From: Deltaproteobacteria bacterium
Lineage (GTDB): Bacteria; Myxococcota; Myxococcia; Myxococcales; 40CM-4-68-19
Length of the DNA stretch: 49,257 nt
Direction of reading: 5' to 3'
Assembly (NCBI GenBank): GCA_025358085.1
Contig: JANYKT010000189.1
Coordinates: 1-49,257, forward strand
Position 1 is the stretch's first letter, and each line of letters opens with the position of its first letter. Positions 988-26,500 of this stretch are shown in pieces. A model generated the notes under the pieces. It searched no databases. It saw only the letters and a program-made list of their open reading frames with translations, and was not told where the DNA came from. A program made the position numbers and the translations under genes.

Positions 988-1006
988 GCGCGAGCGGAGT
1001 GACCGA

Positions 1007-4464: not shown

Positions 4465-4540
4465 TCGTTCTCCAACGCGGGACGCGTGGGTTCGATCCGT
4501 GGCTTTGATACTACAGAAGGGCGTGCTAATCCGGCGGACC

Positions 4541-5497: not shown

Positions 5498-5517
5498 ACT
5501 TGATGGAGGGAGCATTC

Positions 5518-5539
5518 GATTCTTGACCGATTCTTGACC
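5518..5539. repeat. Tandem 11-bp direct repeat between bioB and the EamA gene
   Basis: Two perfect head-to-tail copies of GATTCTTGACC fill much of the 58-bp spacer. Each contains TTGACC, which resembles a -35 hexamer, but no matching -10 element precedes the ATG at 5556 at a standard distance. It may be a binding site for a regulator or a replication-slippage duplication. Confidence 0.7.
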
Positions 5540-5555
5540 CTTTGATTGAGCGACG

Positions 5556-6584: not shown

Positions 6585-6600
6585 CGCGCGAAGCCAGACG

Positions 6601-6972
6601 CCGCTCGAATTCGAGCCCGCAAAGAGTGACCCGTGTCCGCTGCCACAGGGCGCGGAAGAGTCTATCGATTACCTCAAAGCCAGCCGCGACGAGGCATTGC
6701 TGCTCGACATTCCGTGGCTGCGCGAGCGCTTGACGCTGCTGATCACCGATGGTGCCCGCGGCGCAACGCTCTTGACCCGCTCGGACGAGACGCACGTACC
6801 CGCGGTCCCGGCGACGGAGGTAGACGCGACCGGCGCGGGCGACTGCTTCCTGGCCGGCTTCGCCGTCGCGCTCTCGCGGGGAGTCGGGCCGCTCGCGGCC
6901 ATGGACTTTGCCAACCATTGCGGCGCGCTCGCGGTGGCGCAGGTCGGCCTGCCGCGGAGCCTTCCGCTGTAG
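6601..6972 (+). pseudogene. Truncated PfkB-family carbohydrate kinase (C-terminal third only)
   Basis: The readable frame encodes a clear C-terminal piece of a ribokinase/PfkB kinase: SIDYLKASRDEA (substrate-domain helix), LLITDGARGATLL, and the PfkB signature 2 VDATGAGDCFLAGF with its catalytic Asp in the DATGAGD motif, followed by the usual FANHCGALAVAQVG. The family is about 300 residues and this piece supplies only about 120. The N-terminal substrate and Mg-ATP domains are absent: upstream lies the His-rich end of the transporter, whose stop is at 6584, and the same frame there is only a shadow. No good start codon or ribosome site is seen. I infer a deletion remnant left at the transporter's 3' end rather than a functional short protein. 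Confidence 0.75.
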
Positions 6973-7001
6973 GCGTGCGCTGTCGTGCTATTTAAATCGC
7001 C

Positions 7002-7766
7002 GTGACCGGCTGGCGCCTCGCAATGCTGTTGACCGGAACTGTGGCGGCCTCCATCGGCGCGGCGGTCGTGTTTACCAGACGGCCCGATCCAGCCGCGGTC
7101 GATCCCGTGCTTCAGCCGGACGCCGGGCTCCCGCCGGTGGACGCGACCCAGATCGCCTCGGGACGGCTCGCGATGGCGCGAATGCCGAGCGAGGTCGGCA
7201 GTTCGCTGGAAATGTTCTCCGACGAGATCGTGCGCAATGCCGAGGCTCTCGAGACGCGGCAGGCCAGAATCACTGGCACCTGCGCACCAGGGTCCGCCAT
7301 TCGCGTCATCAGCGAGGACGGCACCGTGCGCTGCCAGGCGCTGCCGAAAGGCGTGGTTTCGGTCTCGGCCCTGGCGGCGATCCCGCGGCTTTCGAGCACC
7401 AGCACCGAAGGCTCCAGCATCACGGGGGGCGCCGGAAGATACCAGTCCGCGGGGCCCGATGATTACCTCGCGATCGCGATCGCGCTCCCCGACGGCGCTA
7501 TGATTACCTCCTTTTCTTATACGTATCTGGACGACTCGCCCGAGGTTGATACCGCGGCATTCCTCTACCGGTCCGACGACCAGCCGCTGGCCTCAGTCGT
7601 AAGCTCCGGAGCCGACGGCCGCGTGCGCAGCGGCGCAACCGAAGTCATTCAATTCAGGAAAATCGACAACGCCCGCCATTCCTACTTCGTCTATTTCCAG
7701 GTCTCAGCGCGGGCGGGCTTTCGCATCATGCCGATCTCCGCCTCGGTCGCGTACCGGATTCCCTGA
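7002..7766 (+). CDS. Uncharacterised membrane-anchored or secreted protein
   Basis: A 254-residue protein starting at GTG 7002. Residues about 5-24 form a single hydrophobic helix (signal anchor or uncleaved signal), followed by a Pro/Asp-rich stretch, a helical region (about 45-82), and a CAPGSAIRVISEDGTVRC segment. That Cys-flanked pattern occurs in many secreted or tail-fibre-like proteins, where the two Cys probably form a disulfide. The rest looks like a beta-sandwich (SFSYTYLDDSPEVDTAAFLYR and FFVYFQVSARAGFRI type strands). I do not recognise a named family. The last 63 bp overlap the 3' end of the convergent DUF885 gene. Confidence 0.65.
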   Translation: MTGWRLAMLLTGTVAASIGAAVVFTRRPDPAAVDPVLQPDAGLPPVDATQIASGRLAMARMPSEVGSSLEMFSDEIVRNAEALETRQARITGTCAPGSAIRVISEDGTVRCQALPKGVVSVSALAAIPRLSSTSTEGSSITGGAGRYQSAGPDDYLAIAIALPDGAMITSFSYTYLDDSPEVDTAAFLYRSDDQPLASVVSSGADGRVRSGATEVIQFRKIDNARHSYFVYFQVSARAGFRIMPISASVAYRIP

Positions 7767-9473
7767 GGCTGGGGCTGCGGCTGAAGCTGGCGCCAAAGCT
7801 TTTGGCGAGGCCGAGGACCACCCGACGCCGGGAACCTCTTCACTGTTGCCGGTCAGCTCCCAGCGCAGCAAGGACACGGGAATCAGCCCCGCGGCGTCCT
7901 TCTCGTCCATGAACCGCCGAAGCGTGAACTCCTTGCCCAGCTGCGCCGCGCGCGCGGCGATGAGCTTGTCGATCTCCTGCTTTCCCAGCACATAGCTCGT
8001 CCCATATCCGGGCTGCTGCAGGAACAGGTGCTGCTCGAACCAGAGCGTCGACCCCGACAACCGCAGCCAGCCGCGGGGCGTCAGCGCGGCGGTGTCCCGG
8101 GCGGCCTCCTCCAATGAGCGCTGGTTTGCGTGCATATGCAGGTCTCCGAGCGCCCGCGCGCCACGCTGCGCCAGCAAGACAAAAATCAGCTCGCGCGAGC
8201 GCGGACGCGCGTCGCACATGCCCTCTTCCATCATCAACTCTTCCATCGCGGTGGCGAAGCCCTCGGTCCGCGTATTGAAGATGTTGTAAAGCAGCGGGCC
8301 GCGCCGGATGGGGCTCTGGTTCGGGTCGTCCCTCATCCGCGCCAGATCGATCCAGTGATAGCCATGCGTTCGCATGATCTCCGGGTCGCGATAGTCAGCC
8401 TCGGCAAAGAACTCCAGCGGCCGCTTGCCGGTATAGGTCCCGATATGATCGCGCAAGGCAGGCTCCATGTCGGGCCGCAGGGTCAATACCTGATGCTCTT
8501 TCAGGAACTGCATGTATTCAGTCACGCCCGCATTGAAGCGCTGCTTGAACTCCTCCGCGCTGCTCAAAGGTACCTGCTCGGGCAGCGCGCGGTTCTTTTG
8601 CTCTTCCAGGGCGAGCGCCGATCGAGCGCGCGCAAGCTCCCGCTGCACCAGCAGCACTTCATCGGCCCAGGTGTAGGGGAGAAGCTGGACATTGGCTAAA
8701 TACCAATCGTAATTAGCGATACCAACGCCCGAATGGCCCTTTTTGGACGGAGCCTGCGCTTCCAGCCACCGGACATACTCGTCAGTGGCCCCCTGTGCCC
8801 GCTTCACGGCTTCCGCCAGCGCCGGGTAGGCCCGCGCCCTTTCACCAAGCCCGGCGAGGATCTCCTGCTGCTGTTTCACAGCCTTGATTCCGAAGATCCA
8901 GAGATCCTTTGCATCTCCAATCAGGTTGCCGCGCGCCTGCCGCAGCAGCGCCGGAATGGGCCCCAGGCCAGTGGCAATGGAGTCAGCCGACTTCCCGTCC
9001 AACGAAGCCGGATAAGCCCAAAGCTCCACGGCCCCCCGCGCAAACGGCCCTTCGCGCGCGGGCTGATCGCTCTCTTCATCGAAGACGGTGACATAGAAGG
9101 CAGGGTTGCGCGCCCACGGCCGCAGGACGCGGTGATCAAATGCGAGGCCGTTCATTTCGGCGCGAATGATATGAAAATCGACCTGCTGGGGGATGGGCCA
9201 CGCGCGCGGCTCGAGCGCGCGCAAACGCTCTTGCCAGAGAGCGAGCTCGCGCTGCTGCACTTCCATGGCGGGGGTTGTGTAGTCGGGAGCGCCGTCGGCG
9301 CCGGGCTTCGGCTTCTGGAATTCGCGCCATCCTTTAAAGAGGGTCACCAGATCCGCGTAGGTTCCTCCTTCCGGCGGCTGCCGCTGTTCCGCCCGCGCTG
9401 GTGGTCCATCACTCGCGGGGAGGGTGGTTGCGCTTACTGCGACGAGGAACAGCGAGGCGATGATGAATTGCAT
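7704..9473 (-). CDS. DUF885 family secreted protein
   Basis: A 589-residue protein with an N-terminal signal peptide (MQFIIASLFLVAVSATTLPAS). The largely helical body shows the DUF885 layout: QVDFHIIRAEMNGLAFDHRVLRPWARNP in the first third and an EGFATAMEELMMEEGM segment near residue 420, where other DUF885 members have their Glu-rich, often His-containing, putative peptidase motif. The HEGxPGH motif of metal-dependent relatives is not present here; TRTEGFATAMEE replaces it, so catalysis is doubtful or different. The C-terminal 20-30 residues are basic and low-complexity and overlap the convergent gene's 3' end (7704-7766), suggesting a late run-on of the stop. Function unknown. Confidence 0.8.
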   Translation of the reverse strand: MQFIIASLFLVAVSATTLPASDGPPARAEQRQPPEGGTYADLVTLFKGWREFQKPKPGADGAPDYTTPAMEVQQRELALWQERLRALEPRAWPIPQQVDFHIIRAEMNGLAFDHRVLRPWARNPAFYVTVFDEESDQPAREGPFARGAVELWAYPASLDGKSADSIATGLGPIPALLRQARGNLIGDAKDLWIFGIKAVKQQQEILAGLGERARAYPALAEAVKRAQGATDEYVRWLEAQAPSKKGHSGVGIANYDWYLANVQLLPYTWADEVLLVQRELARARSALALEEQKNRALPEQVPLSSAEEFKQRFNAGVTEYMQFLKEHQVLTLRPDMEPALRDHIGTYTGKRPLEFFAEADYRDPEIMRTHGYHWIDLARMRDDPNQSPIRRGPLLYNIFNTRTEGFATAMEELMMEEGMCDARPRSRELIFVLLAQRGARALGDLHMHANQRSLEEAARDTAALTPRGWLRLSGSTLWFEQHLFLQQPGYGTSYVLGKQEIDKLIAARAAQLGKEFTLRRFMDEKDAAGLIPVSLLRWELTGNSEEVPGVGWSSASPKALAPASAAAPASGNPVRDRGGDRHDAKARPR

Positions 9474-9582
9474 CCGCCCATACTACTCGCGCTGATTGGA
9501 ACTTGTCGCCGAGAGCGGCACACCGGGCGTTCGACGCCTGGTGCGCGGGCACCCTGCGCGAGGTGGCGGCTGGCACCCTGGG

Positions 9583-11058
9583 TCACTTGCGCTTGAGCGC
9601 GTCCGCGACAGCCTTCATGACTTTCACCCGCGCATAGCGCTTGTCGTTGGCTTCAACCAGGACCCATGGCGCCGCGGTGGTGGAGGTCTTTTCGAACACT
9701 TCAAGCGCCGCAGTCTCATAGGCGTCCCACTTTGCGCGATTGCGCCAATCCTCTTCGGTGATCTTGTATTGCTTGTAAGCGATCTCTTCGCGTGCCTTGA
9801 ACCGGCGCAGCTGCTCTTCAGGGCTGATGACGAGCCAGAACTTGAGGACGATGGTGCCGAATGCGGCCAACTGCTCCTCGAAAGAATTGATCTCGGCATA
9901 AGCACGCTTCCAATCCTCTGGAGTGCAGAAGCCCTCGACCCGCTCGACCAGGACCCGGCCATACCAGGACCGGTCATAGATGGTGACGTGGCCCTGCCGC
10001 GGCAAATGGCGCCAGAACCGCCACAGATAGGGATGCGCGCGCTCCTCATCGGTCGGCGCGGCAACCGAGATGACGTCATAAGTTCCGGCGTCCATGGCTC
10101 GAGTGACCCTTCGAATGGCGCCGCCCTTCCCCGCCGCATCCGGCCCCTCGAAGACCAGGATCACCGAGCGCTTCTCCACGGCCAGGGCGCGCGTCCGCAG
10201 GGCGATGCGCTCCTGCAACCGGGCGGTTTTCTCTTCATAGCTCTTGTCGTAGAGCTTGCGAGTCAGATCCAGAGTGGACAGCAACGTCTTCTGCCGCGCG
10301 CCGCGCCGCCGCGTGGGCTGATCCGCCTTTTGCGGCGACGCTTCTTTCGGTTCGTCGAGCCTCGCGCGCAGGGCGACGAGCAGGGTCCGGGCCGCGGTCA
10401 GCGCCCGGTGGTGCGGGTCCTCCGCCTCGATGATGTGCCACGGCACCGCGCCAGTGCTGGTCTTGCGGATGGCGTGCTCCGAGACCGCGCGAAATTTGTC
10501 GTACCGATCCAGGTAGCGCCAGTCGCGCTTGCCGACCCGGAAGCGGGTGAGCTTGTCCTTCTCGAGCGCGTGCAGCCGCTGCTTTTGCGCCTTTTTAGAG
10601 AGGTGCATCCAGAGCTTCACGACAATGGTGTGCTCGCGGTGCAGCATCTCCTCGAACTCGACGATGCGATCGAGGCTCTGATCGAAGGCAGCCGGCGAGC
10701 AGCGGCCAAAGACCCGGTCGACAATGGGATGCGTGTACCAGGTGCCAAACAGCGCCGTGGTCCGGCCGGTGGGCGGCAGCACATTCCAGAAGCGCCACAT
10801 TTCCGGGCGATGCCGCTCTTCATCGGTTGGCTCGCGCATCGCATGCGCCCGGATGCCGCGCGGGTCCATCCATTCGAGTAGCAGATTGACGGTTTCGCTC
10901 TTGCCTGCTCCCTCGACTCCCGAGAGCAGCACCGCGCAGGAGTATGGCGACGCGCGCAAGTCTTCCTGCGCTTTCAACAGGGCGGCGCGGAGCTTCGGAA
11001 CTTCCTTCTCGTATTCTTCCTTGGATACTTTCGCACCCAGCTCGGCTGTCTCGAACAT
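9583..11058 (-). CDS. pap: Polyphosphate:AMP phosphotransferase (two-domain PPK2, class II)
   Basis: Transfers phosphate from polyphosphate to AMP, making ADP in the cytoplasm. At 491 residues it is the expected size for the fused two-domain form. Domain 1 (about 1-240) has a P-loop-like SGVEGAGKS and PTDEERHRPEMWRFW; domain 2 (about 270-491) has EGPDAAGKGG, PTDEERAHPYLWRFW and the Walker-B-like IYDRSWYGR. In domain 1 the corresponding segment reads LFGTWYTHP, so the DRSWY aspartate is missing and the N-terminal half is probably structural, as in characterised two-domain members. The ATG at 11058 begins the conserved MFETAELG start. It is flanked by DUF885 (same strand, 109 bp away) and short intergenic DNA; no ppk1 is in view. 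Confidence 0.93.
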   Translation of the reverse strand: MFETAELGAKVSKEEYEKEVPKLRAALLKAQEDLRASPYSCAVLLSGVEGAGKSETVNLLLEWMDPRGIRAHAMREPTDEERHRPEMWRFWNVLPPTGRTTALFGTWYTHPIVDRVFGRCSPAAFDQSLDRIVEFEEMLHREHTIVVKLWMHLSKKAQKQRLHALEKDKLTRFRVGKRDWRYLDRYDKFRAVSEHAIRKTSTGAVPWHIIEAEDPHHRALTAARTLLVALRARLDEPKEASPQKADQPTRRRGARQKTLLSTLDLTRKLYDKSYEEKTARLQERIALRTRALAVEKRSVILVFEGPDAAGKGGAIRRVTRAMDAGTYDVISVAAPTDEERAHPYLWRFWRHLPRQGHVTIYDRSWYGRVLVERVEGFCTPEDWKRAYAEINSFEEQLAAFGTIVLKFWLVISPEEQLRRFKAREEIAYKQYKITEEDWRNRAKWDAYETAALEVFEKTSTTAAPWVLVEANDKRYARVKVMKAVADALKRK

Positions 11059-11309
11059 GCGCTGTGACTATCCCATGAAGCTCCCTGTCGAAAAGCCTTT
11101 ACCAAAGAGGATGACCCGGGGCCGACAGAGGAGCTTGGCCGCCTGCCTCCCCGCCTGGCGCCGGGCGAACAGCGCTATGTCACTGCCCGAGGGCCTCGCG
11201 GCGATGAAGGCCGAGTTGGCGACTTTGCCCGAGCTTCGCGGCGCGCGCAGCTGTTGCTTGCGACCCTTGCCGCCGTAACCGTTGCGGGATACGTGTTGAC
11301 CATCGAGCC

Positions 11310-11519
11310 ATGTCCCAGGCGGCAATCCAAATCATGGCCGAGGTTCTCCTCGAGGGAGGACGAGTTCAGGCGACTCTGCTCCTCGCCTGCGGCTGCACCG
11401 TGAATTGCGTTGTCGCCGGGAGCCGAATCGTCGAGACCGAGGACGGCCGACGCTTCGCGGCCGGCAAGTATCCCTGTCCCGCAGGCCATCCTGTGCGTCC
11501 TCCGTCAATTGGCGAATGA
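11310..11519 (+). CDS. Small cysteine/histidine protein, possibly zinc-binding
   Basis: A 69-residue protein; an internal in-frame ATG at 11334 is an alternative start and neither has a clear ribosome site. After a hydrophobic/beta N-terminus it has LACGCTVNC, then ETEDGRRFAAGKYPCPAGHPVRPP. The spacing of CxCxxxC and CPxGH suggests a single metal knuckle, and the string reads like a conserved small protein rather than noise, but I cannot name a family. It lies in the spacer between the PAP gene and the acyl-CoA dehydrogenase, in the same direction as the latter and 98 bp upstream of it. Confidence 0.4.
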   Translation: MSQAAIQIMAEVLLEGGRVQATLLLACGCTVNCVVAGSRIVETEDGRRFAAGKYPCPAGHPVRPPSIGE

Positions 11520-11617
11520 GCCCGCGCCACAACTTCAGGCGTTCGCGGTCTATCGCCCGCACCGATTCCTGCTTCAAACACTTTGACAACAGGGCCCCGG
11601 CAGCCTAGGCCGCTCCC

Positions 11618-13333
<1,716 letters not shown>

Positions 13334-13334
13334 A

Positions 13335-16300
13335 TTAGTTGCCTTTCACCGTCATATAGATCGGCGCCGACGTCTGCAGGCCGTCACTCACCACGAGCTC
13401 CAACTCGTAGGTGCCCTTGACGTCGAGTGCGAGCGTGGGCTTGGCAGCCATGGGACTGGTGATCAACGCGCCACTGCCGGGCGGCAAGGCATAAATGGAC
13501 CATTGATAAGTCAATGGACCCGCGCAGGCGCTGTTCGGATCCACCAGGAGCGCGCCTGCGTTGTTGAATGTGCCATCGAATTGCAAGTTGGGTTGCCCTG
13601 CAGTCGCGAGGGTGAAGCTGCCCAGGTCCGTCGGACCGGACGGGTCCCTGCTGATTGCGAGCGCGCCGTTGCCGCCGCCGCCAGGAGGAGCGCCCGCCCC
13701 GCTGAGCACCTCTTTCGCACCCGGAGACAGCGCCACGCTGCCGCAGGGGCCGGTCGTAAAGGTGGAGGTGGTGCTGGCAGTAGCGCCGCTCACCAGATCG
13801 GTGACGGTGAGCCGCACAATCCATGTCCCCTTGGGTTGGTCGAGCAGGAAGCTGGGATTGGAGCTGGTGGGCGCATTGAAGGCCGAGCGGCTCCCGGCGG
13901 GCAATGAATCGAACGACCACTGGAAAGCGACGGCAGGCTGGAGCGCAGGTACGCAGGCGATGGGGAACGCGACCACGCTCGTGACCCGCTGCTGCGTCCC
14001 GATGTTGAGCAAGCCCCCGGCAGGGAAAGGCGTGATTGAAGCCGTCATCGCGCAGCTCACGGCCTGGACGGCTGCGCCGGTGCCCACCCCCTGATTGCCG
14101 AGCGCATCCGTGACGACGACGTTGTACTGATATTGATTCACCGCGCCAACACCTGTGACAATGTCGGGAATGAAGCTGGCCTGGGCGTTGCGCGGCGAAG
14201 CGAGAACAGCCGTCGAGGTAGAAGCAGCGCCGCCCGGCAGCGTCAGTGACCAGGCATAGCTGTACGGCGCCGTCGTCGGCGCGCCGCCGCACCCAAGGTT
14301 CGCATCGGCAGTCACGGCCGCGTTGAGCAGCACGCCCCGGCCAATTTCCGCGGTAGCGACTGAAGCAGTGGCAATCACGCTCGGGCTGGCGTTGCACCCG
14401 CTCACCGGAATGGCGACGGTCGCGAAGCCGCTGTTGCCAATCGAGTCGGTCGCCTTGACCGAGAGCACATAGCTGCCGCCCACGTCGGCGACAAAGCTTG
14501 CGACGGTGGCGGTGGGGTCGGCGATGCTCGCCTGGCTCTGCGGCGGGCGCGCCAGCATTGCCCATTGATAGGTATAGGCATAGGCGGGGGCTACGCACGC
14601 AGCAGCATTGGGGTTTGCAAGAGTCGGTGTCACGGTGATCGGATTGGGGCTGCCGGGATTGAGGCTCACGGTCGGAGATCCCGAGATGATGAGCGGCGCC
14701 AGCGAGAGCGGCTGGTTGCACGGGTTAGCGACGTTGACCTGATTCCGGAACGTGCCGACGTTGCCGAGGGTAGTAGTGACGACGGCCTGGATTGAATAGG
14801 CGCCGGTAAGGTCAGGCACGAAGCTGGGCGCCGCGGCGACCGCGCTGTTGAGCTGCGCACGACTGCCGACAGGCAAGCCGACGATCTGCCAGGCATAGCT
14901 GAAGATATTGAGCGGCACTGCGGGGCAGCCCGCGACACCGGCATTCGGATCGGCCAAGGTGCCGACGCTCACGATAACGGGCTGACCGGCGCCGGAGACC
15001 CCGGTGGCTTGCGCGGTTCCTGTCAGCGGCTGGGAGCAGCCGCCAACGGCGATGACCCCCGAGTCGAAGGGAGCGCTGGCGATTCCGAGGGCGTCAGTCA
15101 CCACCACGCGGACCACATACTCCTGCCCGGGCGAGGTGATCACGTCAGGAACGAAGCTCGGGTTCGAGGCATTGGCATTGTTGAGCGTGGCGTGGCTGCC
15201 GTTGGGCTGGCGCACGAGCGACCAGCGAAAAGTCACCAGCGCATTGGTCAACGAGCAGCCCTGCGTGTTGCTGTTGAGATTGAGATCGGTCCAGCTCGCG
15301 CTGAGCGAAAGTGGAACGCCAGTGCCGAGGGGAGCCGCGGGCACGACAATCTTGTTGATGGTCACCGGCTGCGTGCAGCTGCCCACGTTCGGCACGTCGA
15401 GCTGCACAGGCAACGAAACGTTGCCGCCCGCGTCGGTAACGATGAGCTGTACGCGATAGTTGCCAATGACGTCGGGGGTGAAGCTCGGGGCCACACCAAC
15501 AGCGCTATTGAGCTGCGCGAAGCTGCCCGCGGGCTGGTTCACGATGGACCATGCATAAGAGTAGGACGCGCTGATGAACGCAGGACAGCCAGTCGTGTTC
15601 TTGTCGCCGATGACCGCCGCGAGCGTCACTGGCGCGCCGGTTTCGGGACCGCCGTCGGTGAGCAGACCGCCTCCCACCGGGGTGATCGGCGCGACCGAGA
15701 AGCTGAGGACGGCGGTGGGTGCTTGATTGCAATTGACAGCGGTAACGACTGCGGGTGCGGCAATCGCCTTGAGGCCCAATTGATCAGTAACGGCGAGGCC
15801 AATGGTGTAATCGCCAGCCAGGTCCGGGCTCAGGCTGGGCGATGCGGCCGGCGAAACCCCCGCACCGTTGGTGCCGGAGAGCGCGGACTTGCTTCCCTTC
15901 GGTGCGCTGACAATGGACCATGCATAAGTGAAGGGCCGCGCGACAAGTGGCGTCGCGGAACAGCTATCATTGGAATCAACGACGGTCGCGGTCATGGAGA
16001 AGGGGGTTCCTGTCGCGGCCGCTGACGGGGGCACAATGGCAGCGGTGATGGGCACGGAGCCGCAGGCGAGCGCGGTCACGGTGACGAACGCAGGCGCGCT
16101 GGCGTGACCGGTGGAGGCAGCGGCGACGACCGAGAGCCCATAGCTGCCCTGCACATCGGCGAGAAAGGAAGGATTCGAGAGACCGGCATTGTTCAGCAAT
16201 GCCTTGCTGCCGAGGGGCGCGGAGACAAGCGTCCAGCGATAAGAGTAATTGAGCGGCAGATTGCAGGCTCCAGCAGCGGGGCTGCCGACTGGAGGACCAC

Positions 16301-17444
16301 CGGCGGTATCGGTCCCGTCATAAGCGGGATTGTCCGCGTCGGTCACGGCGGTGTGCAGCTGCACCGAGGTGCCGGTCGCAACCGACGCTACGGCGAGGAC
16401 GGCGGCGGTGGGCGTTGCGTCGCCGCAGCCGGTGGTGGCGAGGGTCTGTTTGAAGAGCTGGCTCTGGCGGCCGAGGTTGTCAGTGACGATCAGGCCGACG
16501 ACATAGCTGCCGTGCAGGTCCGGCGTGAACGAGGGCGCGCGGATGGCCGCGTTGTTGAGGCGCGCCGCGGAGCCGGCGGGCAGCTCGAGCAGCGACCAGC
16601 CATAGGAGAAGGTGCGCTTCAATCCGCAGCTGCCGGCCGGGTCTGAGTCCGCGTCGGCGACCACTGCGCTGAGCGCCACCTGCGCTCCGACATCAGGGTT
16701 TTGGGGCGCGGCGGAAATCGATTGAACCACCGGCCCGTTGTCCCCGCAAGGCTGGGTGCTGTAGGTCAGGTGGGCCTTGGGGTCGCTGTTGTCGCTCTGC
16801 AGGCCGAATGAATCGGTGACCTGCACCAGAAGGTCATAGTAGCCGCGCAGATCGGGAGCGAATGAAGGCGTGGCCGTGCTCGGCAGCTGGATGGTGGCGC
16901 GGCTGCCGGGCGGCGCGGCGGCGACAACCCATTGCCAGGCGACGATGGTGCTCCCGCCACAGGTGGTCCCCGGGGTCGCACTGATTGCAGCCGTCTGACC
17001 AATCTGCGGCTTCTCGGGCGATTGGGAAAGCGCGGCAATGGTGGGCCGGCAATCGTCAGTGACGACCACGTCCACCGAGGCCGAGCTGGCAAGGAGGCCG
17101 TCATCCACGGTCAGGAGCAATGAATAGGTGCCCACCCGGTCGGGAATGAATGAAGGCTTGACGAGGTGAGGATCATTGAGGGCCGCCTTGCTCCGGGGGG
17201 GTAACGCGGTAAAGGCCCAGGCATAGGTCAGCGGGTTGCTCGCCCGCAGCGAGATGCTGGCCGAGCCGTCGAGTTGCAACGCAACGCCGACGTGCGCGGC
17301 CGGCACCGCTGCCACGGAGGCCAACGGCGGATTCACCTTCGAGGCGCAGCCGGCCGCGAGCGTGAGGCAGAGTGCTGCCTTGAGCACAGGCTCAATCGCC
17401 GAACGGATAGTACTTGAGGCCTGTGGTGAGCGCATACGAAACAT
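13335..17444 (-). CDS. Giant lipoprotein with 12 Ig/PKD-like repeats (copy 2)
   Basis: A 1369-residue exported protein. The ATG at 17444 has a GGGAG site five bases upstream and yields a lipoprotein signal with lipobox LAAGC (Cys33). The rest is twelve tandem repeats of about 95-120 residues. Each starts after a conserved Cys (CGDATP, CGSVP, CNQAP, CTQPV and so on), has a second Cys mid-repeat, then YxWSLVxxPxGSxAxLNNA, PSFxPDxxGxY and VTDxxG. This beta-sandwich pattern matches PKD/Ig-like folds; the paired Cys probably form one disulfide per repeat. There is no catalytic domain. It overlaps the 3' end of the upstream paralogue by 53 bp and ends one base from the acyl-CoA dehydrogenase. Probable role: outer-surface scaffold or adhesin; that is inference. 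Confidence 0.85.
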   Translation of the reverse strand: MFRMRSPQASSTIRSAIEPVLKAALCLTLAAGCASKVNPPLASVAAVPAAHVGVALQLDGSASISLRASNPLTYAWAFTALPPRSKAALNDPHLVKPSFIPDRVGTYSLLLTVDDGLLASSASVDVVVTDDCRPTIAALSQSPEKPQIGQTAAISATPGTTCGGSTIVAWQWVVAAAPPGSRATIQLPSTATPSFAPDLRGYYDLLVQVTDSFGLQSDNSDPKAHLTYSTQPCGDNGPVVQSISAAPQNPDVGAQVALSAVVADADSDPAGSCGLKRTFSYGWSLLELPAGSAARLNNAAIRAPSFTPDLHGSYVVGLIVTDNLGRQSQLFKQTLATTGCGDATPTAAVLAVASVATGTSVQLHTAVTDADNPAYDGTDTAGGPPVGSPAAGACNLPLNYSYRWTLVSAPLGSKALLNNAGLSNPSFLADVQGSYGLSVVAAASTGHASAPAFVTVTALACGSVPITAAIVPPSAAATGTPFSMTATVVDSNDSCSATPLVARPFTYAWSIVSAPKGSKSALSGTNGAGVSPAASPSLSPDLAGDYTIGLAVTDQLGLKAIAAPAVVTAVNCNQAPTAVLSFSVAPITPVGGGLLTDGGPETGAPVTLAAVIGDKNTTGCPAFISASYSYAWSIVNQPAGSFAQLNSAVGVAPSFTPDVIGNYRVQLIVTDAGGNVSLPVQLDVPNVGSCTQPVTINKIVVPAAPLGTGVPLSLSASWTDLNLNSNTQGCSLTNALVTFRWSLVRQPNGSHATLNNANASNPSFVPDVITSPGQEYVVRVVVTDALGIASAPFDSGVIAVGGCSQPLTGTAQATGVSGAGQPVIVSVGTLADPNAGVAGCPAVPLNIFSYAWQIVGLPVGSRAQLNSAVAAAPSFVPDLTGAYSIQAVVTTTLGNVGTFRNQVNVANPCNQPLSLAPLIISGSPTVSLNPGSPNPITVTPTLANPNAAACVAPAYAYTYQWAMLARPPQSQASIADPTATVASFVADVGGSYVLSVKATDSIGNSGFATVAIPVSGCNASPSVIATASVATAEIGRGVLLNAAVTADANLGCGGAPTTAPYSYAWSLTLPGGAASTSTAVLASPRNAQASFIPDIVTGVGAVNQYQYNVVVTDALGNQGVGTGAAVQAVSCAMTASITPFPAGGLLNIGTQQRVTSVVAFPIACVPALQPAVAFQWSFDSLPAGSRSAFNAPTSSNPSFLLDQPKGTWIVRLTVTDLVSGATASTTSTFTTGPCGSVALSPGAKEVLSGAGAPPGGGGNGALAISRDPSGPTDLGSFTLATAGQPNLQFDGTFNNAGALLVDPNSACAGPLTYQWSIYALPPGSGALITSPMAAKPTLALDVKGTYELELVVSDGLQTSAPIYMTVKGN

Positions 17445-20400
17445 GGGTGCTCCCGAGTGGCGTGAGGATGAACGAGCTGTGCCCGTCGTCCACGCCGTGA
17501 TCGATGTCGAAATACTGGAAAGAGTTGCCGGACTGGATGGCGTAGCGAAGGATTCGATTGGCGCTGTCGATATAGGTGACGTGCGCCTGGCTCTGCGCGT
17601 CGTACTGCAAGGAAGGGAAATAGTTGCCCGCGGTCAGCGTGGCGATATCAATCGTGGTCCAGTTCGAGGCCGTGGCGCAGGCGCTCTTGCAGGTGACCAG
17701 CTGCACCTGGTTCGTGGTGCCGTTTTCGAAAGCCACCCCTGCGAGGCCGTTCGGGGCAACCGCCATGGTGCTCCAGAAACCAACCCCAAGGGTGTTGTTC
17801 GGGGCGCCGCCGCCCGCGATCAAAGTCACCAGCGACCAGGCCCCCGTGCCGGCTGCGCAGGAGCCGTTGCATTCGGCGTAGTGCAGCGAGTGAGTATTGT
17901 CGTCCTGGTAGGCGAGGCGGGGCAGCTTGCTGACCGGGCTTACGAACGCGGTCATGTAATGACCAGCATTGCCAACGGCATCGACGTCCTGCTTTGTCCA
18001 GGCGCTATTGAGGCCCGTGGTGCAGCCCGCGGCGCAGGCGGCATACCTTGCGGTCGGATTCGCCGGACCGTGGGTGTGATAGGCGACCGCCGGAAGGTTG
18101 AGCGCGCCGACGAACATGAGCTGGATTTCGCCGTGCTCGCCTGAACAGTTGACGTCGAGCGCGTCGATTCGGCTGATGTTCCAGCTGGCGCCATTCAGGA
18201 CCGCATAGTGCATCTCGCAGGTCGAGTCGTATCGATAGGCGACCACCGGGGTACCCGTGCCGGGCAGGAACTTGAGTGACACCTGCGCAGTGGCTGCATT
18301 GCCATTCTTGACGTCGATAGCGTCCGCCTCGATGGTGCTGAAGATCCAGCTGGGCGAACCGGTCGAGCAGCCTCCGGAACAGCGGGCGAATCGGAGGTCA
18401 TAAAAGGTACCGGCGACATTCTTCTCATAGAAGGCGATGGACGGATTGGCGGTGGGCGAAGTGGGATCAGGCTCGGCGTCGTTCCAGAGCACGCCTCGCG
18501 AGGCAGCAGCAGGCAGTATGGAGTCGGCCAGCGGATCGGAGACGGTGATGTGGAGGAAGCTGGGCGCGCTGGTGAAGCGGCCGTCGCCGACGCCGAGCTG
18601 AAAGATGTAGTCGCCGGCAACATCGGGGGTGAAGACCGGCTTGGCAGCTGTCACCGGATACAGCGCGGCGGTGCTGTTGGGCGGCGTCGAATACGTGCTC
18701 CAGGCGAAAGTCAGCGGGCCGGTGCACGCAGCGGCGGGATCGGCGCTGCGCGTGCCGTCGAGCTGCAATTGATAGTTGGGCAGGTATTGAATCGTTGACC
18801 CGGCCGCCGGGTCGGGCTGGGGAGTCGAAACCGAGACCGGAAACGGCAGCGAGATGCCCGCCGTCGCATAGGGCAGTGAGCTGCCGCAGGAGCCGCTGGT
18901 CACGGTTCGCGTACTGGAAGTCTTTGCACCGGTGATTGAATCGGTGAGCGTCAGCCGCGCGACCCAGGTGCCGTTCGGGACATCAACCGTGAATGACGGA
19001 GTCCTGCCGGCGGCGTTGTTGAAGCGCGCGTTGCTGCCAATGGGCAATGAGTCGAACGACCACGCATAAGTGAATGGCTGAGAGCAGGCCGTAGTGCCGG
19101 CGCCGACCAGCTGGACCTGGCTGTAAGTCAGCTGGTTTGCGCCCACCGCCACTATACCGGGCACAAGCGTGCAGTTGAAGGCCGTCACGGATCCAGAGCC
19201 GAGGGGCGCGGCCCGGTAGCCGAGCGCGTCGGTGACGGTGACTGTGAAACCATAGACGCCGGCGAGATCCGGGACAAAGTTTGGCTGAGCACTATTCGAA
19301 TTCAACAGAATTGCATTGCTGCCCGCAGGGACGGTGAGCGACCACGTATAAGTATACGGTGCCGTCGCCTGGTTCGCGCACGACAGCGAGTTGGAGTCGT
19401 TGACCACCGCGGCGAGGACCGTGCGCTGGCCCAGTTCGGGGCTGGCGGTGATGGCGGAGACGGCGACTTGAAGGGAGCTGCCGGAGTTGTTACCGCAGCC
19501 CATCGCCACGACGGTCGTGGTGGCGCTGCCCCGGTTCCCGAGCGTGTCCGTGACCAGCAGTGTTGCCACGTAATCGCCGGGCAGGTCGGGGACGAAATGC
19601 GTAGGTATCGAGAACGGGAGGTCCAGCGCCGCGGTAGAGCCGGCCGGTTTCGAGATCAGGGTCCAGGCGTAGCTGAGCGTGGGTATGCCGCAACTCGTGT
19701 CCTGGGCATCATTGGTGGTCGCGGTCAGTGTGACGGTTGCAAGGGTCTTTGCGCCGAGCGGCGCCGTGATGCTGACGGCGACGGGCGCAGCGCAATTCGC
19801 AACCGTTATATCGGCGGTCTGCTGCGCACTGCGATTTCCCGCAGCGTCGATGACGCGGAGGCTGACTGAGTAGGTTCCAGCGGCATCGGGCGTGAAGCTG
19901 GGCGAGAAGGCGGCGCCATTGTTGAGCGCGGCAACGCTGCCCGCGGGACGCGCGATGAGTGACCAATCATACGCATACGGGGTGATTCCGGCCGTGCAGG
20001 CGCCGCCTGAATTCAAATCGCTTACCGAAGCGCTGAGTGCAACGGGCAAGCCGGTCACGCCTCCGACGACGGCGATAGAGATTATTGTGGGCGGGGCCGT
20101 GCAGTTGGCGACCGCGACTTTGCCATTGACCGGTGCGCTGGCGTTGCCCGCTGCGTCGATGACCAGGAGGCTGACCAGATAAGCGCCGGCGAGGTCGGGG
20201 ACGAAACTGGGGGAGGACACTCCCGGGTTGTTCAGGCTGACCGTGCTGCCCGCGGGCGCATTGACCAGCGACCATTGATATCGAAGTGGCGCTACCACCG
20301 AGCAGCTGGCATTTGGATCGGTGACGAGCGCGCTGAGGAGCAGTGGCTGCCCGGTGAGGCCGCTCGTGTCGGGCACCAGCACAGTCAGCTTTGCATTGCA

Positions 20401-22365
20401 GCTCGTTACATCGACGGTTGCGACCGAGGCGAGGCTTTGATTGCCTGCCGAATCGCTGACGACGAGCCGCATCGTATAGCGACCGGCAATGGTGGGGATG
20501 AAGCTGGGCGCTGCGTCGGCTGCGTTGTTCAGCTGCGCTGTTCCTCCGCTCGGCTGTCCGAGTAAAGCCCAGGAATACGAGACGAGCGGCGTGACCAGTG
20601 GACACGCGGGCCCGAGATTTGGATTGAAGGGAGCCGCGTGCAGCTGCAGCGGCTGGCTGGTCACGGCGCCGGCGGGCGCGGTGATGACGGCGGTCAGGGG
20701 CGCGCTGCACTGCGCGACGGTGACGGTGCGGGAGGCCGGGACACTCGCGAGGCCGAGCGCATCGACAACGACAACCTGGACGGTGTAGTCGCCGGAGACG
20801 TCGGGGACCAGGCTTACCGCGGCCTGCCGCGAGTCGCCGGCGGCCGTGATGCCCGAAAGCCGCGCCGCCGAGCCAGCGGGCGCGCTGCGCAGTGTCCAGC
20901 TGAATCGGTACGGCGCGGTTGGCTTGCAGGCGTTGGCGCTGTCGTCGACCGAGGGCGACAGGAGAACGGGCAGGCCGGTGCTCGCGCCATTGACCGCATT
21001 GATGGTGACGGAAGGAGGGACGCTGCCGCAGACCGATGCCTGCACGGTCACCAGCGCGGGATCACTGACCTTGCCGGTCGAAGCGGTGACCGTGATCGAG
21101 AAGACATAAGTGCCCGGCGCGTCGGCGCTGAAGCTCGGGTTCATCAAGCCCGTGCCGTTGAGCTGGGCCCGGCTCGCGAGCGGCGCCGCGACGATTCGCC
21201 ACGAGTACGCATAGGTCGCGGGAGCTGCCCCGCAGGGCGAGGGAGGGCCGTCGGGATCCTGCACCAGCGAGAGCAGCTGCACGGTGTCGCCGGTTGCAAT
21301 GGCGTTCGCACTCGAGGTTGCGGCGACCACCGGCACGGCCCCGCCGCACGGACTCGCATGGACGGTCACGGTCTGGCGAACGCTGCCGCGGCCCAGCTGG
21401 TCGGTCACGATCAGCGCCAGCACATAGTCGCCGGCCACGTCGGGGACGAGCGTTGGTGTCTGGGAGGTGCGGCTGCCAAGCAGGGCTTTTGAACCAGCGG
21501 GCGCCGCGGCAACTGACCAGCTGTAAGAAAGAGATCGCGGGAGCGCGCAGGGCGGCTGCGAGTCGGCGTCGGTCACTTGTGCCCTGAATTGCACCGCCGC
21601 GCCGATATCGGGTGCGGCCGGCGAGGCTACGAGTGTGTCCACCGACGGTGCATTGTCTCCGCAGGCCATGGCGATGATGACGACATGCGCGAGCGCGCTT
21701 TCGAGGCCGAGCGCATCGGTGGCCTTGAGCGCGAGGTCATAGCTGCCGCGCACATCTGGCACAAAGGAGGTGTCGAGTTGGCCCGACGCGACGATCTGGG
21801 CCGTGCTGCCGGCGGGCGCGGCGGCGACCACCCAACTCCAGGCGACGAGCGCATCGCCACCGGCCGCGGTGGCGCAGGGAGCCGCCTGGGCTATGCCGGT
21901 GAGTGCGACGGGTTGCGAGACGTTGACCGATGCAGGAGTTGCGACAGCCGAGGAGACGATGGGAGCGCAGTCGGCGGTGGCTTGAATCGCGGCCTGAACT
22001 GGCATGCTCGCGTTGGCAAAGTCGCGGACGATCAGCTGCACCAGATAGGTTCCGGCGAGGTCGGGCAGGAAGCGCGGCCGCGGACCGGTGGCGCCGTCAA
22101 GGTGAGCCGTGCTTCCGCCGGGCTGGACGACGAGACTCCACTGGTAGGTGACAGGCAGCGACTGCGGGTCGGGCAGGTCGGCCGATGGTGCGCTCCTGCT
22201 TCCGTCGAGCTGCACCGGAAGACCCACGTGCGCGTTGGCAGGAGAATCGATGGCCGCGGTGGGGGCCAAGGGCTTCTTCGCGCATCCGAGAGCGGCCACC
22301 AGCAGAAGCGCCGCAAGGCGACTGTTTTTGTAAAGCGATGAACGGGAGGCGCCGGACAGGAACAT
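17392..22365 (-). CDS. Giant lipoprotein with 12 Ig/PKD-like repeats plus C-terminal propeller-like domain (copy 1)
   Basis: A 1657-residue exported protein. I choose ATG 22365 over an upstream TTG (22413) because it gives a signal peptide with a basic start and a hydrophobic core ending AALGC (Cys28), a relaxed lipobox. Twelve repeats of the same Cys-paired Ig/PKD type follow to about residue 1278. The last 375 residues differ: a series of short blocks with CSGGC, CAAGC, CNGSC and CKSAC pairs and recurring Tyr/Trp-rich strands (LRFARC, ARYAAC, LHYAEC, VQLVTC, LRYAIQ), suggesting a beta-propeller or sialidase-like repeat domain. The repeats match copy 2 in order. It lies 75 bp downstream of the GT39 gene on the same strand and overlaps copy 2 by 53 bp, so the three are probably one transcript. 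Confidence 0.85.
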   Translation of the reverse strand: MFLSGASRSSLYKNSRLAALLLVAALGCAKKPLAPTAAIDSPANAHVGLPVQLDGSRSAPSADLPDPQSLPVTYQWSLVVQPGGSTAHLDGATGPRPRFLPDLAGTYLVQLIVRDFANASMPVQAAIQATADCAPIVSSAVATPASVNVSQPVALTGIAQAAPCATAAGGDALVAWSWVVAAAPAGSTAQIVASGQLDTSFVPDVRGSYDLALKATDALGLESALAHVVIIAMACGDNAPSVDTLVASPAAPDIGAAVQFRAQVTDADSQPPCALPRSLSYSWSVAAAPAGSKALLGSRTSQTPTLVPDVAGDYVLALIVTDQLGRGSVRQTVTVHASPCGGAVPVVAATSSANAIATGDTVQLLSLVQDPDGPPSPCGAAPATYAYSWRIVAAPLASRAQLNGTGLMNPSFSADAPGTYVFSITVTASTGKVSDPALVTVQASVCGSVPPSVTINAVNGASTGLPVLLSPSVDDSANACKPTAPYRFSWTLRSAPAGSAARLSGITAAGDSRQAAVSLVPDVSGDYTVQVVVVDALGLASVPASRTVTVAQCSAPLTAVITAPAGAVTSQPLQLHAAPFNPNLGPACPLVTPLVSYSWALLGQPSGGTAQLNNAADAAPSFIPTIAGRYTMRLVVSDSAGNQSLASVATVDVTSCNAKLTVLVPDTSGLTGQPLLLSALVTDPNASCSVVAPLRYQWSLVNAPAGSTVSLNNPGVSSPSFVPDLAGAYLVSLLVIDAAGNASAPVNGKVAVANCTAPPTIISIAVVGGVTGLPVALSASVSDLNSGGACTAGITPYAYDWSLIARPAGSVAALNNGAAFSPSFTPDAAGTYSVSLRVIDAAGNRSAQQTADITVANCAAPVAVSITAPLGAKTLATVTLTATTNDAQDTSCGIPTLSYAWTLISKPAGSTAALDLPFSIPTHFVPDLPGDYVATLLVTDTLGNRGSATTTVVAMGCGNNSGSSLQVAVSAITASPELGQRTVLAAVVNDSNSLSCANQATAPYTYTWSLTVPAGSNAILLNSNSAQPNFVPDLAGVYGFTVTVTDALGYRAAPLGSGSVTAFNCTLVPGIVAVGANQLTYSQVQLVGAGTTACSQPFTYAWSFDSLPIGSNARFNNAAGRTPSFTVDVPNGTWVARLTLTDSITGAKTSSTRTVTSGSCGSSLPYATAGISLPFPVSVSTPQPDPAAGSTIQYLPNYQLQLDGTRSADPAAACTGPLTFAWSTYSTPPNSTAALYPVTAAKPVFTPDVAGDYIFQLGVGDGRFTSAPSFLHITVSDPLADSILPAAASRGVLWNDAEPDPTSPTANPSIAFYEKNVAGTFYDLRFARCSGGCSTGSPSWIFSTIEADAIDVKNGNAATAQVSLKFLPGTGTPVVAYRYDSTCEMHYAVLNGASWNISRIDALDVNCSGEHGEIQLMFVGALNLPAVAYHTHGPANPTARYAACAAGCTTGLNSAWTKQDVDAVGNAGHYMTAFVSPVSKLPRLAYQDDNTHSLHYAECNGSCAAGTGAWSLVTLIAGGGAPNNTLGVGFWSTMAVAPNGLAGVAFENGTTNQVQLVTCKSACATASNWTTIDIATLTAGNYFPSLQYDAQSQAHVTYIDSANRILRYAIQSGNSFQYFDIDHGVDDGHSSFILTPLGSTHVSYALTTGLKYYPFGD

Positions 22366-22440
22366 CTCGCTACCGTAAAGTGGAATACCGGCACGGAGCA
22401 AGAAAGCTCCCAAACGGGCGATGCGCGTGAACGGATGCTG

Positions 22441-23904
22441 CTATTGGTAGTGCCGGGTCGTTGGCCAGACCTTTTGCAGGGATGCTTTCGGCGTCCGGCA
22501 GATCCAGATGGAAAGCGCGTCCTCATAGGGCATGACCAACGGATTGTGCGGCAGGCGCGCCACCTCGCGCACGTCGGCGAAGGCCCGGCGGTGGCTCTCG
22601 GGCTGGCCGCCCACAATGATCCAGGGCCCGTCGTCCCGCCCTGGACCCCAGAGAAAATAGTTGTTGTGCCCGCTGGCGACTTTCGGAAACGGCCCGCCGA
22701 GGAGCTCGATGGCCGCGGCCTCACCATAGTTCTGCGTATAGATGGTAGAGCGCGCGCTTTCTCCGGGCGGCAAAGCGCGGACCAGAGTCGCCACGGTCTG
22801 CGCCAGCTTTTCCCAGCCGTGCTGGTCGGCATAGACTTGCGGCAGCACGCCGTACTCCATCTTCTCCAGGTGGCGGGGGGCCATCCCGAGCTTCGCCTGG
22901 TATTGAATGAAGGCTGCTTCGGGAAGCAAGGGGATGGCCAGCGGTGCGAACGCGAGCCCCTCCGAGACCACCAGCACCGGCAACAGGAAGCGCGCGCGCG
23001 ATCGCCAGGCACTCTCGAGCGCTACCGCGCCGCCCGCGAAAAGAATGGGAATGACCGGCGCGGCGTAATACGCCTTCGCCTGCAGGGTGAATAAGAGAGC
23101 GAGCAGGAAGACGCAGGCGAGACCGATGGAGAGCCGTTTGCGGAGGAGCCAGAGAACGCCCGGTATCCACACCAGCGCGTGCAGCGGACCCAGATCGGTC
23201 AGAAGCTCGAGAAAGAATTGCGCAGCTTCAAAGTCCGCGTTCTTGTGAAGCCGCCCGTTGCGGAGAAGCTCGAGCATGGGAAATCCGTTCCGCCATTGCC
23301 AGAGGAGATGCGGAGCAACGATCAAGAGAGCCAACAGCGCGGCCGCGGGCAGCCAGCGCGTCCTCAACAGCCGCGGCGCGCCAACTACAGTACCCACCAG
23401 CAAACAGATGACGAAGAACGCCATCGAGTGCTTGTTGAGCATTCCCACCCCCGCGAGCGCGCCGGCCGCGAGCCAGAGGCGCACGTTGCCTCCGTCAAGC
23501 AGCTTCAACAACACCGCGGCGCAGCCGAGCCAGAGCAACGGCTCCAGCGCATTGACGGTCATCAGATGACCGAGGGCGAGGAGCATTGGCGAGGTAGCGA
23601 CGCAGAGTCCAGCGAGGGCCACCGCGAAAGCACCGCCGCCCAGCCGTCGCGCGAAGAGCCCCGCGCCGAGCGATACCGCGGCGTGGATGAGCGCAGCCGG
23701 CAGCCGGAACAATAGAACCGACCCATGCGCGGCGTGAAAAGACAAGGCCGCCAGGGCGGGGAAGAGCGGCGGCTGGTCGACGAATCCCCAGGCCAGGCGC
23801 TGGCCGCAGACCACGAAGTAGAGTTCGTCGCGAAAGAAGCCATAGCGGGACGCGGCGGCGAGGTGCAGCAGCAACGCGAGCAAGGGACCTGCGAGCAATG
23901 GCAT
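22441..23904 (-). CDS. GT39-family (PMT/ArnT-like) membrane glycosyltransferase
   Basis: A polytopic inner-membrane enzyme of 487 residues with about ten hydrophobic helices in the first 330 residues and a soluble C-terminal part. The first loop holds YGFFRDELYFVVCGQRLAW and GFVDQPPL; the Asp of RDELY is the catalytic position of GT-C enzymes that transfer sugar from a polyprenyl-phosphate donor. GHNNYFLWGPG in the C-terminal region is also typical of this bacterial subgroup. ATG 23904 has an AGGAG site five bases upstream. The acceptor is unknown (lipid, glycan or protein). Its position directly upstream of two exported repeat lipoproteins allows protein glycosylation as a hypothesis. It is divergent from the FabH-like gene across 84 bp. 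Confidence 0.9.
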   Translation of the reverse strand: MPLLAGPLLALLLHLAAASRYGFFRDELYFVVCGQRLAWGFVDQPPLFPALAALSFHAAHGSVLLFRLPAALIHAAVSLGAGLFARRLGGGAFAVALAGLCVATSPMLLALGHLMTVNALEPLLWLGCAAVLLKLLDGGNVRLWLAAGALAGVGMLNKHSMAFFVICLLVGTVVGAPRLLRTRWLPAAALLALLIVAPHLLWQWRNGFPMLELLRNGRLHKNADFEAAQFFLELLTDLGPLHALVWIPGVLWLLRKRLSIGLACVFLLALLFTLQAKAYYAAPVIPILFAGGAVALESAWRSRARFLLPVLVVSEGLAFAPLAIPLLPEAAFIQYQAKLGMAPRHLEKMEYGVLPQVYADQHGWEKLAQTVATLVRALPPGESARSTIYTQNYGEAAAIELLGGPFPKVASGHNNYFLWGPGRDDGPWIIVGGQPESHRRAFADVREVARLPHNPLVMPYEDALSIWICRTPKASLQKVWPTTRHYQ

Positions 23905-25156: not shown

Positions 25157-26500
25157 ATGGTGAAAACGCAGGTCATTCAGGAGCGCGCGGTGTTGTCCGC
25201 CCAGGTACAGCTTGCGCCGGCGGCGGCCAGTTTTGAAAGAGCAGTGCAGCTCGCGCCGGACGATGTCACGCTGCGACAGCGGCTCGCCGATGTGTACCTG
25301 CGGCTGGGCCGCAAAACCCAAGCCATTCGCGAGCTGCAGCAGGTGGCGGATCGATACGCCAGGGTCGGGCGGCTCCTGCGCGCCATCGCCATCGGCAAGG
25401 TCATCCTCGATCTCGACCCCGGACACCAGCAGACGCAAGAGGCGCTGGCTTCTTTATACGCGCGGCAAAGCGAGACCTTGCCGTTTCACGAGCCCCGGCC
25501 GGTGAGCCTGGCTTCGGGAACGCACGAGTTTGTCGAGACGGCGCCCATCGATCTCGAGTCGCTGGCGGTCTTTCGCAGCGCGCTGGAAGGCCGCGTGGCC
25601 TTGCCGTTCGGCGACGACGACAGCGAGGCGGCCACGGGCGCGGGGCCCGAGATGTCCGCCATCGACGTGGGCGCCCTGCCGGGCTCGCCGCTCTTTTCCG
25701 CGCTCGACCACGCGTCTTTCAACGCCGTTGTGGAACGGCTGACCCTGCGCTGGATGACTGCGGGAGAAACGCTCATTAGAGAAGGCGACCACGGCAACTC
25801 CATGTTCGTGGTCGTGCAAGGCACCGTGAATGTGTTGCGCGGCCAACCTGGCGCCGACCGGCTTCTCGCGCTGATGACCGAAGGAGCCTTCTTCGGCGAG
25901 ATGGCCGTCATGACCGATTCGCCGCGACTCGCGAGTGTCATCGCCGCCACGGACGGCTTGCTCTTCGAGATTCATCGCGATGCGCTCGCGGAGATTGTCG
26001 CCGTGCACCCCTCGGTCAAAGAAGTGTTGGCGCAGTTCTACCAGCAGCGAATGCTGGAGAACCTGCTCCGCGTGAGCCCGCTGTTTCATCCCTTCTCGCT
26101 GGAAGCAAAGCAGGAGATCGGTGAGTGCTTCGTCCGCCACAGCCTCCCGCCCGAGACCGTGATTCTCGAGCAGGGCAAGCCGGGCGCGGGCCTCTGCGTG
26201 CTGCTGCGCGGTCAATGCAAGGTCTTCCACCGCGACGCCGAGGGCCAGCCACTGCCGCTGCCGCCGCTGCGCGAAGGCGAGGTCTTCGGCGAGATCTCGC
26301 TGCTGCTCGACGGCCCGTGCACCGCCACTGTCCAGACGCAAGGCTATTGCGAAGTCCTCGAGTTGCCGGCCGGCGACTTCAAGCGGCTGGTGCTACCCAA
26401 CGACGAGGTGCGCGCAATGATTCGCCGCATCGTCAGCGAGCGACTTTCACGCACCGCCGACCTGCTCGACGGCCGCGTGCTGCCCGACTTCATCGTCTGA
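25157..26500 (+). CDS. TPR-like plus tandem cyclic-nucleotide-binding domain protein
   Basis: A soluble 447-residue sensor-type protein. Residues about 20-105 look like two or three TPR helices (ASFERAVQLAPDDVTLRQRLADVY and following). CNB domain A spans about 180-295 with the phosphate-binding cassette FFGEMAVMTDSPRLASV, including the Arg (R257) that contacts the cyclic phosphate. CNB domain B spans about 308-430; its cassette reads VFGEISLLLDGPCTATV, so the Arg is lost (Cys388) and this domain probably does not bind cAMP in the normal way. There is no HTH, so this is not a CRP-type transcription factor. The gene for a class III cyclase with an FHA domain starts 5 bp after its stop. I infer a ligand-controlled adaptor working with the cyclase. 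Confidence 0.9.
   Translation: MVKTQVIQERAVLSAQVQLAPAAASFERAVQLAPDDVTLRQRLADVYLRLGRKTQAIRELQQVADRYARVGRLLRAIAIGKVILDLDPGHQQTQEALASLYARQSETLPFHEPRPVSLASGTHEFVETAPIDLESLAVFRSALEGRVALPFGDDDSEAATGAGPEMSAIDVGALPGSPLFSALDHASFNAVVERLTLRWMTAGETLIREGDHGNSMFVVVQGTVNVLRGQPGADRLLALMTEGAFFGEMAVMTDSPRLASVIAATDGLLFEIHRDALAEIVAVHPSVKEVLAQFYQQRMLENLLRVSPLFHPFSLEAKQEIGECFVRHSLPPETVILEQGKPGAGLCVLLRGQCKVFHRDAEGQPLPLPPLREGEVFGEISLLLDGPCTATVQTQGYCEVLELPAGDFKRLVLPNDEVRAMIRRIVSERLSRTADLLDGRVLPDFIV

Follow-up and report, generated by a model that had tools for sequence, protein, structure and literature searches.

The window (the whole 49,257-nucleotide stretch of Myxococcales DNA that was analyzed) carries on its minus strand two consecutive, overlapping genes for giant lipoproteins. 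Gene B, the first of the pair (17392..22365), encodes a 1657-aa lipoprotein with 12 PKD repeats and a predicted C-terminal propeller; gene A, the second (13335..17444), encodes a 1369-aa lipoprotein that has no further domain besides its 12 PKD repeats and that we call a plain stalk. The overlap is 53 bp (17392..17444, minus strand), so that the last codons of B contain the start and the signal-peptide n-region of A; both reading frames and their overlap had been placed correctly in an earlier note on this DNA. We took the ATG at 22365 as the start of B; a TTG at 22413 could give a longer protein. Lipoboxes were assigned by inspection, in B at Cys28 (AALGC28, in LVAALGC followed by AKK; nucleotides 22282-22284, minus strand) and in A at Cys33 (LAAGC33, in LTLAAGC followed by ASK; nucleotides 17346-17348, minus strand), and inspection likewise finds a lipobox and its Cys in nearly all relatives. 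Residue +2 is Ala in both proteins, with no Asp; Ala at this position gives no argument for inner-membrane retention.

The best Pfam match of both proteins is PF22352, K319L-like_PKD (E=1.7e-55 for B and 5.2e-39 for A), and the scores of the pair, 132.6 and 185.4 bits against a curated cut-off of 27, place them in this family. A hidden Markov model built from their own repeats counts 12 in A and 12 in B, the same after one iteration, just as the earlier note had counted. In each protein, the cysteines comprise the lipobox Cys followed by 11 pairs, one in each of repeats 2 to 12, with repeat 1 free of Cys. The one probable disulfide per repeat that had been proposed thus applies to 11 of the 12 repeats and fails for the first. 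Across 45 two-repeat rows taken from A, B, and the relatives of both in genome G018, the columns that hold these cysteines are either invariant or conserved at >90%, and we infer that these pairs form one disulfide per repeat. An AlphaFold2 model of the two-repeat unit has a pLDDT of 95, and it has structure matches among bacterial adhesin and Ig-type stalks. The repeats themselves are diverged, with cross-repeat identities mostly of about 30-50%.

The C-terminal domain of B (17395..18537, minus strand; 381 aa) is predicted to be a seven-bladed beta-propeller with a fold like that of the PLL/PHL lectins. Its AlphaFold2 model, made from two sequences, is of moderate confidence (pLDDT mostly 70-90); in VIA-align comparisons, it superimposes on Photorhabdus PLL/PHL lectins with Z of about 30-32 and rmsd of 2.4-2.7 over about 310 residues, at a sequence identity of only 7-10% (7-12% to lectins overall). 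The model thus assigns B the propeller fold, and a fold shared with lectins does not establish sugar binding. Because of this extra domain, A and B are not equivalent proteins. The earlier note, which had read them as a two-component pair, overlooked the tip domain, whereas its view of the genes as a pair finds support below. Tips related to the B propeller occur in arrays of G102, G010, and G018:C46 and, weakly, in G024; one long tail is common to the arrays of G013 and G018:C55, and a different one is found in G003.

A PMT_2-type glycosyltransferase gene (22441..23904, minus strand; PF13231, E=3.2e-19) lies 75 bp upstream of B on the same strand and is possibly co-transcribed with it; this gene is not kept beside the G018 pair, and comparison of neighborhoods in relatives found no conserved neighbors of the window pair. 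Elsewhere in the window, two consecutive, mutually overlapping genes encode DUF4140/DUF4139 domains (1007-4542, minus strand), and the gene at 25157-26500 (plus strand) encodes a TPR protein that also has two cyclic-nucleotide-binding domains.

Positional homology and a second overlapping pair

The earlier note had proposed that repeat divergence came first and duplication of the whole array second, pointing to five motif pairs shared at the same ordinal positions, and all five are present at those positions. Scored along the diagonal, the A-versus-B comparison gives 2034, as against a mean of 1225 (s.d. 102) for permuted repeat orders, and none of 100,000 permutations scored as high. The signal is not spread evenly over the arrays. 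Within the N-terminal block of repeats 1 to 5, which includes the Cys-free first repeat (A, 15732..17348; B, 20710..22284; both minus strand), the A-B matching is the maximum of the 120 possible orders, and within the C-terminal block of repeats 10 to 12 (A, 13338..14396; B, 18538..19497; both minus strand) it is the maximum of the 6. In the variable middle, repeats 6 to 9 (A, 14397..15731; B, 19498..20709; both minus strand), positional matching is not significant (0.17), and here B6, B7, and B8 are most like one another.

The window pair has a counterpart in another Myxococcales family. On contig C127 of G018, two genes that we call B' and A' follow one another in this order on one strand; B' carries the propeller, which is 44% identical to that of B and shares its final residues, TTGLKYYPFGD, and the ATG of A' falls at the corresponding point of B', so that this overlap, too, is 53 bp long. 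Since pair, order, overlap, and propeller all recur, the A and B genes are supported as a unit. Gene order, overlap, and propeller also argue for a pair that either predates the split from G018 or moved by transfer of both genes together. Quartet likelihoods were used to place the A-B duplication before or after that split and gave no date: most quartets did not resolve, and no order won consistently. A fragment in G006, a genome of the same family as the window genome, matches positions 1 to 3 and represents a third, truncated member.

A tree of 58 repeats, from A, B, and their two G018 relatives, returns groups of four at positions 1, 2, 3, 4, 10/15, 11/16, and 12/17. Support is 87/86 for position 1, 92/88 for position 4, and 95-100 for the other groups; position 5 groups weakly, with one extra row, and the middle repeats do not sort by position. 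Positional matching reaches z values of 4.8-6.3 among A, B, A', and B' and is mostly <2.6 against other arrays, so positional homology as a trait of all such arrays was rejected. Taken together, the sequence comparisons support a duplication of an array whose repeats had already diverged, with their order kept at both ends. The proposal of a whole-array duplication therefore stands for positions 1-5 and 10-12 (8 of the 12) and does not extend to the middle. Clustering of repeats within a protein rather than by position, which the earlier note had named as the contrary outcome, is not seen at these eight positions and is seen in part in the middle.

Both G018 proteins have 17 repeats, the A' repeat with a long insertion being counted once, and the five extra ones sit in the middle, between conserved ends. 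Repeats 7 to 13 of A' form a clade of their own that contains no B' repeats (95/96), and A' and B' show no positional matching in the middle block, where the diagonal falls at the 61st percentile. The 17/17 equality is thus not simply that of an old copy, and plain recent copying of one array onto the other does not explain it; the middle has expanded in G018, in A' at least through duplications within that array. The most similar cross-pair between A' and B' is repeat 5, at 60% identity. The plain arrays of G024 and G019 also have a long insertion, rich in Asp, Ala, and Gly, in their repeat 4 (L048 and L049; about residues 449-541); the long insertion in repeat 4 of A' sits elsewhere in the domain. 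The G018 pair is preceded on its own strand, at a distance of about 240 bp, by PilY1-like and PilW-like genes (L060:1142-7688, G018:C127).

Repeat numbers in tandem pairs and a linked barrel family

The wide genome search for relatives used a three-repeat query; in plasmid records, only distant PKD proteins were found. The earlier note had raised the possibility that homologues occur singly and with varying repeat number. This is true of the wider family, in which single arrays have 3 to 18 repeats, whereas inside the countable tandem pairs of the order the numbers are equal in four of four cases (12/12, 17/17, 10/10, and 11/11). A fixed 12-repeat format is rejected by the last three of these pairs. 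Each pair consists of a plain stalk and a stalk with a C-terminal domain. In G024:C36, a plain array of 10 repeats is followed by a tipped array of 10, and the two are mostly not collinear. In G013:C167, a plain array precedes one with a 944-aa tail, at 11 versus 11; the plain count is gap-corrected, that is, it counts the pieces visible across runs of N, and one repeat of the partner is internally shortened. These N-runs fall inside repeats and have the same 10-23 bases on both flanks (L047:8439-10115), which marks them as false scaffold gaps; the gene only looks interrupted in the assembly. The fifth pair, in G010:C5, runs off the end of its contig and was left out of the equality count. Partnership of the A/B type is not obligatory, since single arrays occur and one of them, G019:C83, is plain.

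Two arrays drawn at random from the family agree in repeat number with a probability of 0.14-0.19, so that four equal pairs out of four would be drawn with a probability of 4e-4 to 1.2e-3, a null that is too harsh if pairs begin as equal duplicates; when the plain members of the four pairs are instead reassigned among the tipped ones, the chance is only 1/24. The equality test was devised after the data had been seen, on four pairs, three of them taken from MAGs, whose repeats may be misassembled. Because it is post hoc, because duplicates start equal, and because MAG assemblies can distort repeats, we regard length matching within pairs as a strong lead and not as a result.

A second element linked to the arrays is a protein whose C-terminal domain, about 212 residues long, is similar to outer-membrane barrels (PF13505, below the cut-off) and is conserved from genome to genome in alignment. 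In G018, its gene comes a few bases after A', and across the order it adjoins a Cys-PKD array in 15 of 19 places. Of the remaining four places, three are at contig ends, and the fourth is on contig C24 of the window genome, G000. All 16 genomes with Cys-PKD arrays, from six families, have the barrel, a count inflated by the relatedness of the genomes; only one barrel genome, G004 (contig end), shows no array, and none of the phylum sample outside the order yielded a barrel. Among nine barrel proteins scanned, there was no Slam/DUF560 Pfam match and three had weak TPR matches; NCBIfam returned only below-threshold or repeat-driven matches. The family is not annotated in Pfam or NCBIfam.

The contig of the window pair contains no barrel gene, beside the pair or elsewhere. 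The earlier note was in no position to see the barrel that goes with the family. The window genome has one array-linked barrel and one orphan. The former is on the minus strand of G000:C58:1-12000 (L011), where a PEGA/TPR protein that ends in this barrel (6945-10070) precedes a third giant Cys-PKD array (2-6883) of 17 repeats, whose glycine-rich C-terminal region is cut by the contig end. The orphan gene (G000:C24:6921-8285; L145) is followed by a gene for a hybrid histidine kinase (8680-15999) with about 15 HAMP domains and GAF and receiver domains; this neighbor was considered as an alternative partner array and rejected, being a multi-HAMP hybrid kinase. The orphan barrel (G000:C24:7656-8279) is a candidate to serve the window pair from another locus, and this is a guess, since the barrel tree does not group it with the G018:C127 barrel.

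A possible two-stalk adhesin

That A and B form a two-component surface fiber or adhesin pair, as the earlier note suggested, is plausible and is favored by the lipoboxes, the rod-like repeats, and the modeled lectin-fold tip. The reading that we tentatively prefer is a two-stalk adhesin, anchored in the outer membrane and matched in length, with a lectin-like domain on one tip and with the small barrel assisting in its display. A and B would be made together from the overlapping genes as outer-membrane lipoproteins, anchored by their lipidated N termini, with the PKD rods, one disulfide per domain, pointing outward. The B propeller would stand at the far, C-terminal end, where it may engage glycans of prey, of other cells, of the matrix, or of self, and the end of A would be bare. 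With equal domain numbers, the stalks would reach the same height above the membrane. They would probably stand side by side, aligned with each other in the two conserved blocks, near the membrane (repeats 1-5) and near the tip (repeats 10-12); changes of length would fall in the middle and affect both stalks alike. The equality in number, the conservation of both end blocks, and the gene overlap suggest joint production and action at the same height, perhaps as a paired stalk. In the wider family, the barrel probably assists in moving the lipidated stalk to the cell surface or in keeping it there, a display or anchoring role proposed by analogy to Slam (PMC9090332, PMC5449769). That all this amounts to a class of myxobacterial devices, defined by an in-register matched double stalk with co-changing domain numbers, one C-terminal tip (a lectin-type propeller in B), and a dedicated small barrel, we consider doubtful.

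The alternative that survives best, although we think it somewhat unlikely, is that A and B are two independent lipoprotein adhesins which arose by tandem duplication, make no contact, and are equally long simply since each has to extend beyond the same surface layer, LPS or capsule. The G024 pair, with equal numbers and little collinearity, fits such a shared reach better than it fits domain-by-domain pairing; single arrays exist, and partners differ in loop insertions (A4 and A6, and the long one in A' repeat 4). Shared reach alone, however, does not explain the conserved 53-bp overlap or the plain-plus-tipped composition, and single arrays differ in length from the pair within one genome, as in G018, where the arrays have 11, 17/17, and 18 repeats. 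It is less probable still that the equal numbers are historical, left by whole-gene duplication with gene conversion or unequal exchange between neighbors and devoid of functional meaning. The positional homology of A and B would follow from such a history, which would also accommodate the high similarity of A' and B' at repeat 5 and quartet tests that allow a duplication before or after the split; it does not account for the G024 arrays, which are equal yet mostly not collinear, and the separate A' clade and lack of an A'-B' middle signal argue that the middles were not recently copied. The idea that A and B are not adhesins and instead serve as scaffold or stalk in some other surface machinery, such as a type IV pilus-associated complex, is prompted by the PilY1-like and PilW-like genes in G018 and is very improbable, since no PilY1 gene lies near arrays in other genomes and no pilus genes lie beside the pair in the window; a type IV pilus link was rejected as seen only in G018.

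The length-matched two-stalk reading finds its nearest concept in the periscope proteins SasG, Aap, Rib, and Sgo_0707, in which domain number sets reach (Whelan et al. 2021, PMC8201768). A and B likewise consist of tandem folded domains, 12 in each, which may form a rod, with a propeller in B only as a putative ligand-binding end; domain number varies between relatives, here between families of the order. Periscope proteins, however, are single, mostly anchored to Gram-positive walls, and built of near-identical repeats with an N-terminal ligand domain (PMC8201768), whereas A and B are lipoproteins with diverged, Cys-paired PKD repeats, a C-terminal tip, and two number-matched genes; their repeats are not near-identical. 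The only solved relative of the repeats by sequence is human KIAA0319L (PDB 6nz0 and 7ti5; E=3.3e-8), a eukaryotic receptor with few PKD domains; the arrays here are bacterial lipoproteins of 12-17 domains, with one Cys pair to each. The PLL/PHL lectins, the closest solved folds to the B tip, are free and soluble, whereas the B domain caps a lipoprotein stalk. TraA of Myxococcus is, to our knowledge, not a PKD array; TraA/TraB is comparable in that a surface receptor of a myxobacterium and its partner protein in the outer membrane are encoded together, there for outer membrane exchange (PMC3325183). Like Slam (type XI; PMC9090332, PMC5449769), the barrel protein combines a barrel with an N-terminal periplasmic part and is encoded beside the lipoprotein that it would serve; unlike Slam, its barrel has about 212 residues and lacks a Slam/DUF560 match. 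Our literature search found no paper on PKD arrays in myxobacteria and no described system that combines the parts named here, in agreement with the earlier note, which knew of none. The parts (PKD repeats, surface lipoproteins, and propeller lectins) are known; as far as we found, the combination is apparently undescribed.

The repeat number of surface stalks is usually taken as free to vary. Neighboring genes that keep an equal number despite turnover of the middle would indicate joint selection on stalk length, and a number-matched pair would offer a natural test of two stalks acting as one fiber. For the surface display of giant lipoproteins in myxobacteria, the barrel family offers a concrete candidate.
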